From positions 1 to 37,641 of IMG/VR virus record IMGVR_UViG_3300042542_004418: 37,641 nucleotides of DNA. One strand, 5' to 3'. Below the pieces are notes generated by a model. That model was given only the letters and a program-made list of their open reading frames with translations, was not told the origin of the DNA and searched no databases. The DNA is from a virus. The stretch's first letter is position 1. Each line of letters opens with the position of its first letter. Positions 14,240 to 37,641 of the stretch are shown here, in pieces. The position numbers and the translations under genes are program-made.

Positions 14240-14312
14240 TGGCCCATAACTCAGACGGTAGAGTGCCGAACTGTTAATTCGGATGTCCCAGGATCGAAAC
14301 CTGGTGGGCCAG
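14240..14312 (+). tRNA. tRNA-Asn (GTT)
   Basis: Complete cloverleaf: acceptor arms TGGCCCA and TGGGCCA, anticodon loop CTGTTAA with GTT at 14273-14275, and T loop region GGATCGAAACC. The 3' CCA is not encoded. First of three tRNAs in tandem. Confidence 0.93.
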
Positions 14313-14316
14313 CAAA

Positions 14317-14390
14317 GGTCCTGTAGTTCAGTTGGTTAGAACGCTACCCTGTCACGGTAGAGGTCGACGGTTCAAGTCCGTTCAGGATCG
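14317..14390 (+). tRNA. tRNA-Asp (GTC)
   Basis: Acceptor arms GGTCCTG and CAGGATC with one G-U pair, anticodon loop CTGTCAC with GTC at 14351-14353, and T arm with GGTTCAAGTCC. CCA not encoded. It starts four bases after tRNA-Asn. Confidence 0.93.
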
Positions 14391-14393
14391 CAT

Positions 14394-14466
14394 GGCATCA
14401 TCGTCTAGTGGCCTAGGACATTGCCCTTTCACGGCAAGAACACGGGTTCAAATCCCGTTGGTGTCA
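14394..14466 (+). tRNA. tRNA-Glu (TTC)
   Basis: Acceptor arms GGCATCA and TGGTGTC with G-U pairs, anticodon loop CTTTCAC with TTC at 14428-14430, and T arm GGGTTCAAATCCC. CCA not encoded. The next gene's ribosome site begins eight bases later. Confidence 0.93.
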
Positions 14467-14486
14467 CAATAGTAAGGAGTGATATA

Positions 14487-16065: not shown

Positions 16066-17505
16066 ATGATAATTTTAGGAATTAATGAAACATCTCATGA
16101 TGCATCCGTATCTTTAATTGAAAATGAAAAAATACTTTTTGCAGCCCACGCTGAAAGATATAGTAAGCAAAAAAATGATTGGTATGTAAGCCAAAAGTTA
16201 GTTAACGATGCTTTATTATATGGAAAGCCAGACTACATAGCATATTATGAAAAACCTTTATTAAAAAAAACTAGATTATTATTAAAAGGTGGTGCTGGAG
16301 ATTGGAAACCTAAATTTAATTTAGAAAAAATTCCAAGAGTATCCTTTAAGCATCACTATTCTCATGCAGCAGCAGGATATTACACAAGCAAATTTAATGA
16401 TGCCGTAATAGTTGTATTAGATTCAATTGGAGAGTTCAATACTTCTACAATTTGGATAGGAGAAGGAGAATCAATAGTATTAAAAGAAAAAAGAAATTAT
16501 CCTTTTAGTTTTGGATTATTTTATTCTGCTTTTACAGATTTAATTGGATTAATGCCAAACCAAGAAGAATATATAATGATGGGTATGGCTGCATATGGAG
16601 ATTGGTTAAAATATTATAAAAAAGTTCTTGAATACTTTCCTTCAATCAATCATCAAAAATATAACTTTCATAAAGGTATTGTTGATTGGAATGAACCAAT
16701 TACAGAACAAGATAAATTTGATATAGCAGCAGCGGTACAAAAAGTATACGAACTAAGATTATTTGATTTTATGATACATGCAAAAAAAATAACAAATAAA
16801 CATGAATTAGTTTTTATGGGTGGATGTGCGTTAAATTGTTCTGCCAACACAATGTTATGGGAAATTTTTGATGACGTTTGGATTATGCCTAATCCAGGAG
16901 ATGCTGGATCTTCTTTGGGTGCAGCAGCAGCCCTATATGGAAAACATTTAAATTGGGAAACTCCATATCTTGGATATGATTTGGGCGGTAGTTATGCTGT
17001 AGAAAAAATTGTAAAAGAGTTACTAGAAAATAAAATAGCAGCGGTAGCAATAGGAAAAGCAGAATATGGACCAAGAGCATTAGGCAATAGAAGTATATTG
17101 GCAGATCCTAGAGATCCTGATATAAAAAATAAAGTTAATCAAATTAAAAAACGTGAATTATTTAGACCATTTGCGCCAGTTGTTATGTCAGAATATGCGG
17201 ATAAATGGTTTGATATGGATTTTGATTCTCCATATATGCAATATGCAGTAAAATGTTTAAAGCCAGAACTCATTCCTTCTGTTGTTCATGCTGACGGAAC
17301 ATCAAGAGTTCAAACAGTAACAAAAGATCAACATGTAGGATTATACAATGTTTTAGAAAAATTTTATATAAATACTGGAGTCCCAGTTCTTTTAAATACT
17401 AGTTTAAATATTAAAGGACAGCCATTATTAAATGATGAATCTGATATAATTGATTGGCAATTAACATATAATGCTAAAATCATTAAAGGGGAAAAAAATG
17501 AGTAA
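16066..17505 (+). CDS. O-carbamoyltransferase (NodU/CmcH/TobZ family)
   Basis: 479 aa. The N-terminal ASKHA/TsaD-like domain starts ILGINETSHDASV and has HHYSHAAAGYY (metal/His motif) and GGCALNCSANT. The C-terminal YrdC-like domain has EYGPRALGNRSILADPRDP and NTSLNIKGQPLLN. The family moves a carbamoyl group from carbamoyl phosphate, through carbamoyl-AMP, onto a hydroxyl of a sugar or antibiotic. Shorter than many members (about 550-600) but all main motifs are present. Flanked on both sides by SGNH proteins, so the three may tailor the same glycan. Confidence 0.92.
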   Translation: MIILGINETSHDASVSLIENEKILFAAHAERYSKQKNDWYVSQKLVNDALLYGKPDYIAYYEKPLLKKTRLLLKGGAGDWKPKFNLEKIPRVSFKHHYSHAAAGYYTSKFNDAVIVVLDSIGEFNTSTIWIGEGESIVLKEKRNYPFSFGLFYSAFTDLIGLMPNQEEYIMMGMAAYGDWLKYYKKVLEYFPSINHQKYNFHKGIVDWNEPITEQDKFDIAAAVQKVYELRLFDFMIHAKKITNKHELVFMGGCALNCSANTMLWEIFDDVWIMPNPGDAGSSLGAAAALYGKHLNWETPYLGYDLGGSYAVEKIVKELLENKIAAVAIGKAEYGPRALGNRSILADPRDPDIKNKVNQIKKRELFRPFAPVVMSEYADKWFDMDFDSPYMQYAVKCLKPELIPSVVHADGTSRVQTVTKDQHVGLYNVLEKFYINTGVPVLLNTSLNIKGQPLLNDESDIIDWQLTYNAKIIKGEKNE

Positions 17506-19155: not shown

Positions 19156-19374
19156 ATGAATCAAACAATTGCGTTATCAAATTCTCAAGATATTTTAACA
19201 GTTCAAGACAGATGTGATACATGTGGCGCTAGAGCGCTAGTTTTGGTTAAGGGAGTAAGCGGTTCACTCATGTTTTGTGGTCATCATTATAATAAAATTA
19301 TGGATAATGCTGTTGGGTATGACAAAATGATGAAATTTGCTTATGAAATAATAGACAATAGAGAAAAAAAATGA
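19156..19374 (+). CDS. DUF7455-type zinc protein
   Basis: 72 aa. CDTCGARALVLV...SGSLMFCGHHYN is the signature of the small actinobacterial/actinophage DUF7455 family: CxxC and CxHH zinc ligands around a beta hairpin. The frame is open to a GTG 15 bases further upstream, but that codon overlaps the -10 box, so ATG at 19156 is the real start. The promoter matches the consensus exactly, so this should be among the most highly transcribed genes here. Overlaps the next gene by ATGA. Confidence 0.88.
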   Translation: MNQTIALSNSQDILTVQDRCDTCGARALVLVKGVSGSLMFCGHHYNKIMDNAVGYDKMMKFAYEIIDNREKK

Positions 19375-20435
19375 GTCATAACGATAAAATTTTTGTTTCT
19401 ATTGCTGCTCTAGAAGACCCTGGGATAATAGATACAATTAAAGATTGTTTAAAAAAAGCAAAAAAACCAGAAAATATTATTTTTGGAATTGCTTTAACTT
19501 ATGAAACAGAACCAAATTTAGATTTTATTCAAAATCAGTCTAGAATTATAAGAACTCCTATGCCAGATTATAATAATCAAATTGGAATGGGAATTATTGA
19601 AATTAGAAATGCTATTAAAAGGTTGCATAAAGATGAAACATATTTTTTACAAATTGACGCTCATGCAAATTTTGAAAAAAACTGGGATGATATTTTAATT
19701 CATGATATTAATGAGATGGATGATAAGACTGTAATTTCAAAACAAATATCAGAATTAGAAAATAAAGAAAATCATATTACTCAGTTTAGATTAATTCCTG
19801 AAACTCCCGTATTAACTGGTAGCACTGTCGTTAATTTAGATAAAATACAAAAAAAACTAATTAATGAAAATTATTTTTTAAACCATTATATTTCTTGTAA
19901 TTTTATTTTTGCCAAAGCAAAATGGTTATATGAAGTCCCAATGGTTACTTATCATAGATATCCGTACGAAGAACAAGAGCATACCATTATTTCATATTGT
20001 TATGGATATAATGCAGTTTCTCCTCTTAGAAAAAGACAGGTAGTTTTTGCAGGAACCGATCCAAAATATCATTTTCCAAGAAGTGAAAAATGGTGGAGAA
20101 TTAATAAGATAAATCCAGATGACGAATCAACTTGGCAATATGATAGGCTTTGGATTTCTGATAACGACGAAATGAGAACAGAGGTAGAACAACTAATGCT
20201 AACTGGTAAAAATAAATATATGAGTATTGAAAATACTGCTCGTAATATTATAGATTTTTATACTGATATAGGATTAGCAGAAGAATATAAACAAATGTTC
20301 TCTTTGCTTAAAGGAGGAAATACGCCATCACACTTTAGGGTAAGAGGAGATCACACTAAAGATGAACTAGTGGCGTATAGATTAAAAAAAATAGATAAAT
20401 ACCATGGAGGAGATTTACAAAATGAAGGATTCTAA
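19371..20435 (+). CDS. GlcNAc-transferase-like glycosyltransferase (GT60 type)
   Basis: 354 aa. KIFVSIAALEDPGIIDTI and a Lys/Asn spacer before FGIALTYE match the start of the bacterial relatives of Skp1 GlcNAc-transferases. YFLQIDAHANFEKNWD is the donor/metal site (DxH form), and FIFAKAKWLYEVPM with YPYEEQEHTIISY is the conserved late segment. It would add a sugar to a protein or glycan in the cytoplasm. The start overlaps the DUF7455 stop and the end overlaps the DUF2061 gene. Confidence 0.85.
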   Translation: MSHNDKIFVSIAALEDPGIIDTIKDCLKKAKKPENIIFGIALTYETEPNLDFIQNQSRIIRTPMPDYNNQIGMGIIEIRNAIKRLHKDETYFLQIDAHANFEKNWDDILIHDINEMDDKTVISKQISELENKENHITQFRLIPETPVLTGSTVVNLDKIQKKLINENYFLNHYISCNFIFAKAKWLYEVPMVTYHRYPYEEQEHTIISYCYGYNAVSPLRKRQVVFAGTDPKYHFPRSEKWWRINKINPDDESTWQYDRLWISDNDEMRTEVEQLMLTGKNKYMSIENTARNIIDFYTDIGLAEEYKQMFSLLKGGNTPSHFRVRGDHTKDELVAYRLKKIDKYHGGDLQNEGF

Positions 20436-34955: not shown

Positions 34956-34975
34956 TTGTATTTCGGCGATATAGA

Positions 34976-35039
34976 GTTCGGCGACAAATAGAAATAGCAA
35001 ACCCTCCTATGCACCTAACGGTGCACTATTGGTTAGTAT
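34976..35039 (+). repeat. Structured repeat, copy 1
   Basis: 64 bases nearly identical to 35440-35502. Its core is a 6-bp hairpin, TGCACC-TAAC-GGTGCA. The second copy has a different but equally perfect hairpin, so paired bases changed together, which points to a conserved RNA or DNA structure. An outer pairing AACC/GGTT is kept in both. Confidence 0.75.
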
Positions 35040-35107
35040 TTCTTAATAATGCTGATAATCCCTATTGAGATACATATTGCAAGAACAATATTTAAGAGAT
35101 TACTCAT
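35033..35107 (-). CDS. 24-aa membrane peptide
   Basis: MSNLLNIVLAICISIGIISIIKKY: one hydrophobic helix with a basic end. Its ATG overlaps the stop of the 42-aa gene (ATGAGTAA). Its stop lies inside structured repeat copy 1. Small and of uncertain function. Confidence 0.5.
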   Translation of the reverse strand: MSNLLNIVLAICISIGIISIIKKY

Positions 35108-35228
35108 CATCTTCAGGGCCTTCAATTGATATCCAAACCCCATCTTGATCAAGACCCCATGTCATGAAAACATAACAGGCAATATAGCCAAGAATAAAGG
35201 CGGGAATTAAGAATAATAAATTTACCAT
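35100..35228 (-). CDS. 42-aa membrane protein
   Basis: MVNLLFLIPAFILGYIACYV forms one membrane helix, followed by FMTWGLDQDGVWISIEGPEDDE, an acidic tail. There is no clear ribosome site; a TTGACA (35257-35252) lies upstream on the minus strand, but the 17-base spacing puts the -10 (TGTTAT) right against the ATG. Coupled to the next tiny gene. Function unknown. Confidence 0.6.
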   Translation of the reverse strand: MVNLLFLIPAFILGYIACYVFMTWGLDQDGVWISIEGPEDDE

Positions 35229-35261
35229 ATAACAATGATATCAAACCTTTATGTCAAAATA

Positions 35262-35360
35262 AAGAGAGGGGACAGTTTTAAGACTTGTCCAGGTCCTATC
35301 CTGATCAGTAATTTATAGACGCTGTCAGGCTCTCATATTGCGTCTTGGCTTTGGTTAAGC
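35262..35360 (-). ncRNA. Candidate small structured RNA or leader
   Basis: Downstream of the strong minus-strand promoter at 35367-35395 the transcript would contain AGACGC (35345-35340) pairing with GCGTCT (35322-35317), a palindrome CTGATCAG, and a hairpin GGACA/TGTCC ending in CCTCTCTTTATTTT. No ORF fits, so it is either a short RNA of about 95 bases or the leader of the 42-aa gene. Confidence 0.4.
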
Positions 35361-35366
35361 ATTATA

Positions 35367-35395
35367 AGTATACAAAGGTTTGAAAGGTTTGTCAA
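35367..35395 (-). promoter_or_regulatory. Consensus-like minus-strand promoter with tandem operator
   Basis: TTGACA (35395-35390), 17 bases and TATACT (35372-35367). The spacer and -35 are made up almost wholly of two abutting copies of AAAGGTTTG (35374-35382, 35383-35391), so a protein bound there would block the promoter. Confidence 0.82.
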
Positions 35396-35439
35396 GTCAA
35401 ATTTCGAGAGTAAAGGCAAGGCAAAAATAGAAGTTTAAA

Positions 35440-35502
35440 GTTCGGCGCAAAATAGAAGTAGCAAACCTTCCTATGCCCTAAGAGGGCACTATCGGTTAGT
35501 AT
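35440..35502 (+). repeat. Structured repeat, copy 2
   Basis: 63 bases matching 34976-35039. The hairpin is TGCCCT-AAG-AGGGCA, perfect like copy 1 but with two base pairs replaced (A-T to C-G, C-G to T-A). It lies just upstream of the -10 box at 35516. Confidence 0.75.
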
Positions 35503-35515
35503 CCTACCTATGCGA

Positions 35516-35521
35516 TATAAT
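35516..35521 (+). promoter_or_regulatory. -10 box of the 45-aa membrane protein
   Basis: TATAAT, 26 bases before the ATG at 35548, which has its own AAGGAG. A leadered mRNA of about 20 bases is expected. No clear -35. Confidence 0.55.
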
Positions 35522-35547
35522 GGATTGATATAGATTAAGGAGTAAAC

Positions 35548-35685
35548 ATGGGAGTGCTTTGGTTTTTTGTTGGATTGGTTGTGGGCTTAGCCCTAGATTT
35601 TGTTTTAGTATTGCATATGCTCAAACCTCTTAAGAAACGTATTGTGGAATTAGAAAATCGGTGGGTAGACAAACAAAGACCGTAA
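35548..35685 (+). CDS. 45-aa membrane protein
   Basis: One N-terminal membrane helix (VLWFFVGLVVGLALDFVLVL), then a basic amphipathic helix (LKPLKKRIVELENRW). TTAAGGAG before the ATG is a strong ribosome site. Function unknown; the layout is like small phage spanin or inhibitor-type peptides, without further support. Confidence 0.7.
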   Translation: MGVLWFFVGLVVGLALDFVLVLHMLKPLKKRIVELENRWVDKQRP

Positions 35686-35702
35686 TCTTCCAGTGTAATA
35701 AC

Positions 35703-35735
35703 AAGCCTATCCGCAATATGGGCGGGGACAGGCTT
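35703..35735 (+). other. Intergenic hairpin
   Basis: AAGCCT (35703-35708) with AGGCTT (35730-35735), and inside it CCGC with GCGG. It follows the 45-aa gene by 17 bases and may end its transcript, though no T-run follows. Confidence 0.5.
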
Positions 35736-35768
35736 AAACCTTCAATAATGCTATAATAAGATATACCC

Positions 35769-35963
35769 ATGTGCCCTATATGTAATAACCACCTGATACC
35801 AATCGTATATGGTTTTGTAGGGAAGAAATATCTGGATGCCCACGAGAAAGGTTTGATATTTCTGGTTAGCAGGACATATCACCGAAAGTCTGATCCATTG
35901 TCATATTGCCCAGTATGCCATGAATCGTATGATGAGGATATTGCCTTACCCCCGCTTTTTTAG
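35769..35963 (+). CDS. Small two-knuckle zinc-ribbon protein
   Basis: 64 aa. MCPICNNHLIPIVYGFVG at the N-terminus and CPVCHE near the C-terminus form a zinc ribbon; similar short proteins are widespread in actinobacteria (recalled), function unknown. TGC-TATAAT (35749-35757) lies 11 bases upstream, giving a very short leader. Confidence 0.78.
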   Translation: MCPICNNHLIPIVYGFVGKKYLDAHEKGLIFLVSRTYHRKSDPLSYCPVCHESYDEDIALPPLF

Positions 35964-36039
35964 TCTCTCTAATAGGCTAATATGGCCTGATATGAAGGTT
36001 TTAGGGTTTGTCAACAAACTCTTAGTATAATAAGTTATA

Positions 36040-36690
36040 ATGAAAACAGTCTTTATACTGGCAGCAGGTGATGGAACTAGATGGGAAAACTATAGAGGTA
36101 GCCCTAAGCATAAAGTCCTAGTTGAAGGTGAAGTCCTGATTGAAAGGACATATAGGCAGTTTTCTAAGTATGCTGATAAAGTTATAATAGTCGCAGATGA
36201 AGAACAAGGTTTTGCCGAAACTTATATCCCCGCTAAAAATAAAGATTGGAAAGATATAGCCAAGTTCTGGTCAAGCAAAGATATTTGGTCAGAAGGTAAA
36301 AATATTATGGTTTTTGCAGATGTATATTTTACAGATGAAGCCGTTGAGTCGATAATGAATGATCCTTATGGCCTATCATTTTATTTAAGAAGTAGGCGTT
36401 CTGAAATTACACAAAAACCATGGAGAGAGATATGGGGCATAGGGTTTGATGGTTTGTCTATTGATATTTTAAAGTCTTCAATATTAAGCATTATAGAATC
36501 TAAAGAAAATTATAATACTGGTGGTTGGCGTTTGCTTGATCAATTGAATAAAGATAATCAAAGGGTGAACTTAGTAGAAATAGATGATTGGACTGAAGAT
36601 TTTGATTTTCCTAAAGATATAAGAAGATGGGAAAAGCAAAGAAATGAATTTTTATCTAAAATAAATCTTACTGACAATAACAAGATCTGA
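36040..36690 (+). CDS. Sugar nucleotidyltransferase-like protein
   Basis: 216 aa. FILAAGDGTRW (G10-D-G-T-R14) is the nucleotide-binding signature, K25 in SPKHKVLV the expected substrate lysine, and MVFADVYFTDE the DxD-like metal region. Such enzymes make NDP-sugars for glycosyltransferases, linking it with those at 12797 and 19371. TATAAT lies eight bases before the ATG, so it is probably near-leaderless. Confidence 0.78.
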   Translation: MKTVFILAAGDGTRWENYRGSPKHKVLVEGEVLIERTYRQFSKYADKVIIVADEEQGFAETYIPAKNKDWKDIAKFWSSKDIWSEGKNIMVFADVYFTDEAVESIMNDPYGLSFYLRSRRSEITQKPWREIWGIGFDGLSIDILKSSILSIIESKENYNTGGWRLLDQLNKDNQRVNLVEIDDWTEDFDFPKDIRRWEKQRNEFLSKINLTDNNKI

Positions 36691-36982
36691 CTGTGGTGAG
36701 TAGTGGAGAATAGTGGTGGGTAATGGAGCGTTTATATCGTAGGGCTCGTAATGTCGTAACGGGCCAAACCTCATATCCTCCAAACCTTCAAACCTTTATA
36801 TCCTGCATATAGGACCTGCATTATATACCAGATATGATGGTTTGTCAAGTAATTTCAAACCTTTATACCCCAAATATCCCGTATAAAAAACCACAAAAAA
36901 TCCAGGAAAAATTTAAATAAATCGTAAAAAGGTTTTAAAAAGTTTAAAAACCAGATAAAAAGGTTTGTTATTTATATAGGGA
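36691..36982. other. AT-rich non-coding regulatory stretch
   Basis: Holds a purine-rich run with repeated TAGTGG-like units (about 36695-36725), a hairpin GGCTCGT (36743-36749)/ACGGGCC (36759-36765), five copies of the AAAGGTTTG motif, a strong minus-strand promoter and a very A/T-rich tract (36880-36960). No convincing gene. It could be a replication origin or a control region. Confidence 0.5.
36820..36848 (-). promoter_or_regulatory. Consensus minus-strand promoter
   Basis: TTGACA (36848-36843), exactly 17 bases, TATAAT (36825-36820): a perfect consensus. The -35 merges with a CAAACC motif. Transcription runs left from about 36813 into the end of the nucleotidyltransferase gene, so its product is an antisense or small RNA, or a tiny ORF. 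Confidence 0.82.
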
Positions 36983-37177
36983 TTATTTGGTGTCGCTTTG
37001 TCTTCCCCGCCTGAAAAAACGGCGGGATCTAGCGATGTGTTTATAAGTCCTAGTAATAGGAGAGAAGGCAAATTGGATAGCATGTTCTATTTTTAATTCC
37101 AACTCTTCTTCTCTCTGGTTTACAGGTTGACCATGAGATTGTCTTCTATATCTTTCTGCAAAATGTCTTGGACTCAT
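36983..37177 (-). CDS. Small basic unknown protein
   Basis: 64 aa, rich in Arg: MSPRHFAERYRRQSHGQ, an acidic middle helix (REEELELKIEHAI) and a basic end (ARSRRFFRRGR). A leaderless promoter exactly upstream supports it as real. Probable nucleic-acid binder. Confidence 0.68.
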   Translation of the reverse strand: MSPRHFAERYRRQSHGQPVNQREEELELKIEHAIQFAFSPITRTYKHIARSRRFFRRGRQSDTK

Positions 37178-37184
37178 ATTTCAA

Positions 37185-37193
37185 ATTATATCA
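37185..37193 (-). promoter_or_regulatory. Extended -10 promoter, leaderless
   Basis: Minus strand TGA then TATAAT (37190-37185), seven bases, ATG 37177. Confidence 0.75.
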
Positions 37194-37235
37194 TCATATT
37201 AAGATACAAAGGTTTGGGCGCAAAAAAGCGGGGGA

Positions 37236-37364
37236 TCAACCAGAATACATATATCTAAAATGCTTCCTACAAGTATCTATAACAAACCCTTCTTCATTGG
37301 TAGAAGAAAAGATAGAGTCATTATCACAGTAATAACACTTTGTTGGGCATTTAAGGTTTGACAT
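37236..37364 (-). CDS. 42-aa Cys/His zinc-type protein
   Basis: MSNLKCPTKCYYCDND then CRKH: C6, C10, C13 and C32/H35 could hold zinc, much like a minimal version of the DUF7455-type zinc fold at 19156. Found because a perfect TGA-TATAAT box sits six bases before the ATG. Codon use is like its neighbours. Confidence 0.65.
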   Translation of the reverse strand: MSNLKCPTKCYYCDNDSIFSSTNEEGFVIDTCRKHFRYMYSG

Positions 37365-37370
37365 ATTTTA

Positions 37371-37379
37371 ATTATATCA
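37371..37379 (-). promoter_or_regulatory. Extended -10 promoter, leaderless
   Basis: Minus strand TGA then TATAAT (37376-37371), six bases, ATG 37364. Confidence 0.78.
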
Positions 37380-37482
37380 GATAGGAAGGTTTGGGATAGA
37401 AAGGTTTGATATCGTAATAAAGTTCAGGGATTTTTTAAACAATCTTCTTAATGTCTAAAAATGTTAAGGTTTGTCGGCCCCT

Positions 37483-37641
37483 TTACTCGTCCCCACCTTT
37501 ATCAAAAATTTCTTCTAAAGTATTAAATCCAGTGTCTTCTAATTCTAATGAGGCCAAAAATAAATGCCATGTTTCATCAATGTATACTTCAGCCTTAGGG
37601 CTCATATCAACTATATCAGTAGAGATAAGATAAGCAAGAGG
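37483..37641 (-). CDS. Partial gene at the right edge
   Basis: The C-terminal 52 aa of a minus-strand protein whose start lies beyond the window: ends ETWHLFLASLELEDTGFN then LEEIFDKGGDE. Acidic and helical, with codon use like neighbouring genes. An overlapping plus-strand frame is its shadow. Family unknown. Confidence 0.65.
   Translation of the reverse strand, partial: PLAYLISTDIVDMSPKAEVYIDETWHLFLASLELEDTGFNTLEEIFDKGGDE

Follow-up and report, generated by a model that had tools for sequence, protein, structure and literature searches.

The window, a 37,641-base virus record (IMGVR_UViG_3300042542_004418, positions 1 to 37,641), contains two copies of a conserved structured element of about 70 nt. 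The element is best read, from sequence comparison, as a cis-acting, usually single-copy, origin-region part of freshwater relatives of the Stanwilliamsviridae. The clade is a large group of freshwater (lake) actinobacterial phages. In minus-strand order the element consists of an outer stem (P1), an asymmetric internal loop, a hairpin (P2), 3 to 10 nt, and the tail TCTATTTnCGCCGAACTTTA. P1 has 4 bp (AACC/GGTT). P2 has 5 to 6 bp (TGCCC/GGGCA) and is capped by a G...A loop or a triloop. The tail is nearly invariant and is the most conserved part.

The copies in the window align in two blocks. The first (34972-35012 and 35436-35476) is 41 nt long and 88% identical at a spacing of 464. The second (35014-35039 and 35477-35502) is 26 nt long and 85% identical at a spacing of 463. 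Exactly two stem pairs differ between the copies, each altered on both sides, as the initial annotation had observed. The outer AACC (35000-35003; 35464-35467) and GGTT (35031-35034; 35494-35497) are retained in both. That annotation had proposed a selected structure of no known class, and this part of its interpretation stands. Its strand is probably the wrong one, its loop pseudoknot lacks support, and the element is not riboswitch-like. Its extent was incomplete, as the element continues beyond the hairpin into the tail and lies within the putative replication-origin region. In RNA folding against shuffles, copy 1 had a z score of -2.64 and copy 2 a z score of -0.28. Copy 2 thus folds no better than its own shuffles, so thermodynamics alone is insufficient to reveal the structure.

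Table 1. Features of the element and its surroundings in the window
Feature	Position	Strand	Remark
Element copy 2, whole	35436..35506	-	Match to covariance model R2, 90.1 bits
Element copy 1, whole	34972..35043	-	Match to covariance model R2, 74.5 bits
Copy 2 outer stem P1 (AACC/GGTT) plus enclosed part	35464..35497	-	
Copy 2 inner hairpin P2 (TGCCCT/AGGGCA)	35474..35488	-	
Copy 2 stem, plus-strand reading	35474-35479; 35483-35488	+	TGCCCT, loop AAG, AGGGCA
Copy 1 outer stem P1 plus enclosed part	35000..35034	-	
Copy 1 inner hairpin P2 (TGCACC/GGTGCA)	35010..35025	-	Minus-strand loop GTTA
Copy 1 stem, plus-strand reading	35010-35015; 35020-35025	+	TGCACC, loop TAAC, GGTGCA
Copy 2 conserved 3' tail	35436..35456	-	TCTATTTTGCGCCGAACTTTA
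Copy 1 conserved 3' tail	34972..34992	-	TCTATTTGTCGCCGAACTCTA
Promoter-like TTGACA-N17-TATACT, downstream of copy 2	35367..35395	-	By eye
Candidate small ORF, 25 codons	35033..35110	-	By eye; stop TAA is the TAA of copy 1 TAACC
Gene downstream of copy 1, 94 aa	34656..34940	-	TATACT-like box before it; apparently leaderless
Putative origin core	36651..36981	-	Homologous to sequence upstream of the element in relatives; promoter TTGACA-N17-TATAAT at 36848-36820, AAGGTTTG repeats, ATTACGA
End of homologue of conserved gene c0	37501..37641	-	Origin-flanking in relatives

Relatives were collected with three pattern searches. Search 1 returned 31 stretches, with the element in L004, L005, L006, L013, L014, L022, L026, L027, and L029. 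Search 2, in which the flanks and part of the hairpin stems were fixed, returned 98 stretches, almost all of which contained the element, with a wide variety of inner stems. Because a hairpin-flank pattern fixes part of the structure, search 3 used the 3' tail alone and ignored the hairpin. It returned at least 120 stretches. Among the matches listed, 105 of 109 distinct sequences had a hairpin of 5 bp or more, compared with 25% in shuffles; a few of the 105 are best stems lying out of place. The stem is conserved in these further copies, which bears out the selected RNA or DNA structure proposed at first. Row set A1 left out duplicates and two chance matches (L046 and L107). Row set A2 left out the four of the 109 sequences that lacked a proper hairpin (L014, L262, L274, and L286) and added the second copy of the window (from L026).

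The element has a conserved nucleic-acid secondary structure, with compensatory changes in excess of chance. In a sequence-only alignment of 106 sequences, 85.9% of the stem cells were paired, compared with 75.3 in shuffles, and 106 were double-changed, compared with 22.8. The covariation score was 0.273, against 0.076 for shuffles and at most 0.096 for slid versions. None of 500 shuffles reached it; relatedness remains in that control, but the slid versions fall far short. Covariation is seen at several pairs of the inner stem and at one of the four outer-stem pairs (C-G 89, A-U 8, U-A 3). A third, outermost helix (AGGATA/TATTTT), taken from single-sequence folds, was rejected, with a mean helix score of 4.95 for true pairs and 4.98 for permuted ones. 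Also rejected was the proposed pseudoknot between loop CTAA and a downstream TTAG. The loop sequence varies without a matching change in the partner, and the plus-strand loops of relatives (TACAC, TAAAC, AAA, TTGC, and others) fail to keep the pairing.

There were 18 different inner 5-bp stem readings in 212 distinct relatives. Pairs were counted in 208 of these, excluding 4 with fewer than four paired inner positions. Of 1,040 inner-stem cells, 1,032 were Watson-Crick; the rest were G-U (1), A-C (5), or other (2). The G-U share in tRNAs from the same loci was 6.0% (294/4917). Over the 18 distinct stems the scarcity of G-U has a p of about 0.03, and these stems are short and related. The near-absence of G-U argues for a DNA or two-strand constraint rather than an ordinary RNA helix. 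The minus-strand loops are mostly G...A (GTGTA, GTTTA, GTATA, GCAA, GTTA, GAAA, and GCAAA). G...A pentaloops and tetraloops are stable in RNA, and GNNA loops are also stable in DNA.

A further set was anchored on c3, a protein encoded upstream, so that loci were not chosen by the element. The search yielded 573 relatives among 600 candidates, and the best 80 of at least 573 were kept (about 55 distinct loci). R2 matched in 72 of these 80, once each and always on the c3 strand, 2,286 to 5,310 bases behind c3. The contigs of the other 8 end 814 to 3,318 bases past c3, too near to be informative. Where a locus has several copies (e.g., the window, L026, L045, L072, and L128), they share one strand. 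There is one element locus per genome, and CGCCGAAC is unique or nearly unique in records of 90 to 119 kb. The element was present in 50 of 50 records, a count that is not a frequency, since all but the window were picked for having it.

The window TerL shares about 54% identity with the TerL of Streptomyces phages, among them LukeCage and Karimac. G047, a relative of 118,809 bases, has matches of about 55% to Kenrey and Gilson; both are placed in the Stanwilliamsviridae by their records. The phage encodes Pol III alpha, a DnaG-like primase, and a DnaB-like helicase. The window also contains three adjacent tRNA genes (Asn, Asp, and Glu; 14240-14467), a carbamoyltransferase gene (16066-17505), and a GlcNAc-type glycosyltransferase gene (19371-20435).

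No Rfam 15 family reached its gathering cut-off in the window except tRNAs, and at E values up to 10 nothing meaningful appeared for the window region or L111, in keeping with the view that the structure belongs to no known class. Isolates gave no blastn match to the element, only short chance matches. Model R1 had no match in Kenrey or Gilson, and R2 had none in Kenrey, Jay2Jay, DSL-LC01, or NTR1. A further pattern gave 36 bacterial genome stretches, and the strict element pattern matched 0 of the 36, so bacterial copies were rejected. Among the papers listed in literature searches, no title or abstract opening described the element or these phages' origins. Within that literature the conserved signal of about 70 letters is previously undescribed.

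Upstream of the element is a concentration of DnaA boxes (TGTGGATAA). The bin from -1.5 to -1.0 kb contained 50 boxes over 56 loci, and the bin from -1.0 to -0.5 kb contained 39 over 69 loci. From 1 to 6 kb downstream and from -6 to -2.5 kb upstream, no 500-base bin contained more than 1 box. In 68 of the 72 c3-anchored loci such a cluster, in fixed orientation, separates c3 from the element. Its last box lies 0.8 to 4.0 kb ahead of the element in this set; in other loci the gap can be as short as about 0.2 kb. Before the boxes, the 14 loci inspected have a promoter, AAGGTTTG repeats, ATTACGA, and CTCCACT repeats. The origin core of the window is similar to 59 of 86 loci. The window has no exact DnaA box, and neither do 4 of the 72 c3-anchored loci. 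A plus-strand ORF (36040-36690), nucleotidyltransferase-like by eye, occupies the expected place of the boxes in the window. The motif AGGTTTG/CAAACCT is frequent at 35242-37467 and forms tandem repeats at the origin in relatives; these are perhaps iterons for an initiator.

Three Streptomyces relatives have DnaA boxes about 70 bases beyond the end of the terminal repeat, with TTTACGA repeats on the other side. The Streptomyces Stanwilliamsviridae (Riptide, Jay2Jay, and Braelyn) share with the lake phages the order of a DUF932 gene (about 52% identical), TTTACGA-type repeats, and DnaA boxes. They differ in that the element had no match by R1 or R2 in Kenrey or by R2 in Jay2Jay. Because of the DnaA-box clusters, the homology of the window core, and this shared arrangement, the assignment of the region upstream of the element as a replication origin is well supported, though short of proof. 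The left end of Riptide (L441) has a palindrome, TATGTTCC(GCGCC)GGAACATA, 7 nt from the genome end. A weaker form was seen by eye in Jay2Jay and none in Braelyn.

The functional strand is probably the window minus strand, opposite to the one read initially, judging from the flanking genes, stop codons, and G...A loops. Genes on both sides of the element lie mostly on this strand. Among 180 contexts, ORFs of at least 100 aa within 120 nt upstream comprised 77 in sense orientation (22 families) and 9 in antisense (5 families). Those within 120 nt downstream were 52 sense and 27 antisense (18 and 15 families). The difference in sense bias has a Fisher p of 0.03 by family and 0.0003 by ORF. Stops of 61 of the 77 sense ORFs fall between 32 nt inside the outer stem and 10 nt before it. 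A looser count of neighbors within 250 nt (170 contexts) gave 109 sense and 11 antisense upstream and 70 and 48 downstream. A rank test of ORFs of at least 90 aa in 55 distinct c3-anchored loci found no difference (44/55 sense upstream, 40/55 downstream).

The flanking genes are interchangeable, with unrelated families on both sides, so the element is not a gene-specific riboswitch, which would require the 5' leader of one gene family. Some downstream genes appear by eye to be leaderless, with a -10 box 6 to 7 nt before the ATG. Many small genes appear to have their own promoter and the same spacing (e.g., in L040, L101, and L106), like leaderless actinobacterial genes, and CGCCGAA recurs in the promoter spacers of some of them in these loci. 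A role of the tail as an upstream promoter element was rejected, as several downstream stretches have no promoter by eye and still keep the tail. Genes read from their sequence as HNH-like and GIY-YIG-like endonucleases (clusters c32, c48, and c14; e.g., in L106, L072, and L096) often adjoin the element or lie near it, which suggests a hot spot of gene exchange.

From the observed conservation, structure, location, and orientation we infer candidate mechanisms at the level of RNA and of DNA. Near-universal presence, fixed orientation, origin adjacency, few copies, and interchangeable neighbors point to a cis function in the origin region. Both levels are kept in view, with a lean to RNA because of the gene context. 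The element may, with a chance approaching even, control transcription elongation through the nascent RNA, as a boxB/nut-like signal or a factor-dependent terminator. The element would be carried on RNA transcribed from the origin promoter through the small genes that follow. The hairpin would form in the nascent transcript immediately after the last small gene's stop codon, and hairpin and tail would act on the passing RNA polymerase, either by loading an elongation or antitermination factor in the manner of boxB/boxA or by a factor-assisted stop. This would set the end of the origin-proximal transcription unit, or what enters the next genes.

We prefer elongation control because of the position behind a stop codon and the boxB-like hairpin with its conserved unpaired partner. 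Also in its favor are the covariation, the near-universal presence, the agreement in orientation with the surrounding genes, the many unrelated sense families that end beside the element, and the shared strand of multiple copies. The common form, TGCCC-GTGTA-GGGCA, has a 5-bp stem and a GNRA-like pentaloop; tetraloops and triloops also occur. The loops match lambda-type boxB pentaloops in size and shape, and the placement resembles that of lambda nutR behind cro. Lambda-type nut sites (boxA/boxB) and rrn boxB-boxA antiterminators likewise have a 5-bp stem, a G...A pentaloop, and an adjacent conserved single-stranded stretch behind a stop. The element differs in its extra outer stem, its tail of about 20 nt without a recognized boxA, and its place at the far end of the origin-proximal genes. 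No canonical boxA is recognizable in the element, and CTCTATTTT resembles one only loosely. In copy 2 of the window the upstream-side gene appears to lie on the other strand, which counts against a transcript reading, as do the near-absence of G-U pairs, the lack of a U-run directly after the hairpin, the missing boxA, and the rank test of neighboring ORFs. Sense T-run hairpins are concentrated 1 to 3 kb before the element and are rare just after it. Like a bacterial intrinsic terminator, the element is a hairpin at gene ends. Unlike one, it has no immediate U-run, its tail is invariant, and there is usually one per genome. An intrinsic terminator was rejected, given the 3 to 10 variable nucleotides between the outer stem and TCTATTTT; the extra outer helix that would bring a U-run directly after the hairpin fails a permutation test.

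The main rival, because of the Watson-Crick-only stems and the origin location, is a single-stranded DNA hairpin used in replication, which we regard as a serious but rather doubtful possibility. A fork leaving the origin toward the element would make the window minus strand the lagging-strand template, on which the hairpin would fold, and a primase, helicase loader, or nicking enzyme would recognize the tail. This would fit the upstream DnaA-box cluster in one orientation (density peak 0.5 to 1.5 kb upstream), the single locus per genome, the interchangeable neighbors, the replication proteins encoded by the phage, and the loops GTTA and GCTA, which are G..A yet not GNRA. It fits less well with the varying distance to the last DnaA box, the tendency of genes to end at the element, and the lack of a GC-skew turn there. 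Single-strand initiation sites (the G4-type origin and plasmid ssi) and HUH nick sites (oriT) also combine a DNA hairpin with conserved unpaired sequence on one strand near an origin. Here, however, the distance to the origin varies and no cognate enzyme was found (relaxase PF03432, the one family tested, was above cut-off in 0 of 9 records).

The other alternatives are improbable. A trans-acting small RNA, processed from a transcript 3' end with the tail as its seed, would account for the conservation of the tail and the 3'-UTR-like position; it is unlikely, as the next promoter often follows closely after the tail, no sRNA terminator is recognizable, and no target is known. Still less probable is a packaging or genome-end site recognized by terminase. 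The element is usually single copy, cis, and gene independent, and long terminal repeats occur in related Streptomyces phages, where the DUF932 gene and TTTACGA repeats are near one end. In the three Streptomyces relatives, however, the terminus precedes the DnaA boxes, so the homologous genome end would lie upstream of the element and not at it. Nor is there any clustering at the element of record ends among the eight longest records. Chance similarity or a recent functionless duplication could be entertained for the window copies alone, which offer only two double changes; it is refuted by the diversity of stems among the relatives and by the presence in the c3-anchored loci, and its probability is negligible.

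The element very probably performs an essential job, as its near-universal strong conservation beside the origin suggests. It may belong, though this is less likely than not, to a new class of origin-linked signals in which a strand-specific hairpin and an invariant tail tie the origin to departing transcription or prime the displaced strand, kept across the clade while genes swap. The host phages are a large, mostly uncultured lake group. For them the element provides a sequence marker of the clade and of its origin. If it acts as RNA, boxB-like elongation signals would extend beyond the lambdoid phages. If it acts as DNA, it would be a new origin-associated hairpin signal. In either case it points to a step that is probably indispensable to the phage and offers a precise experimental handle on it.
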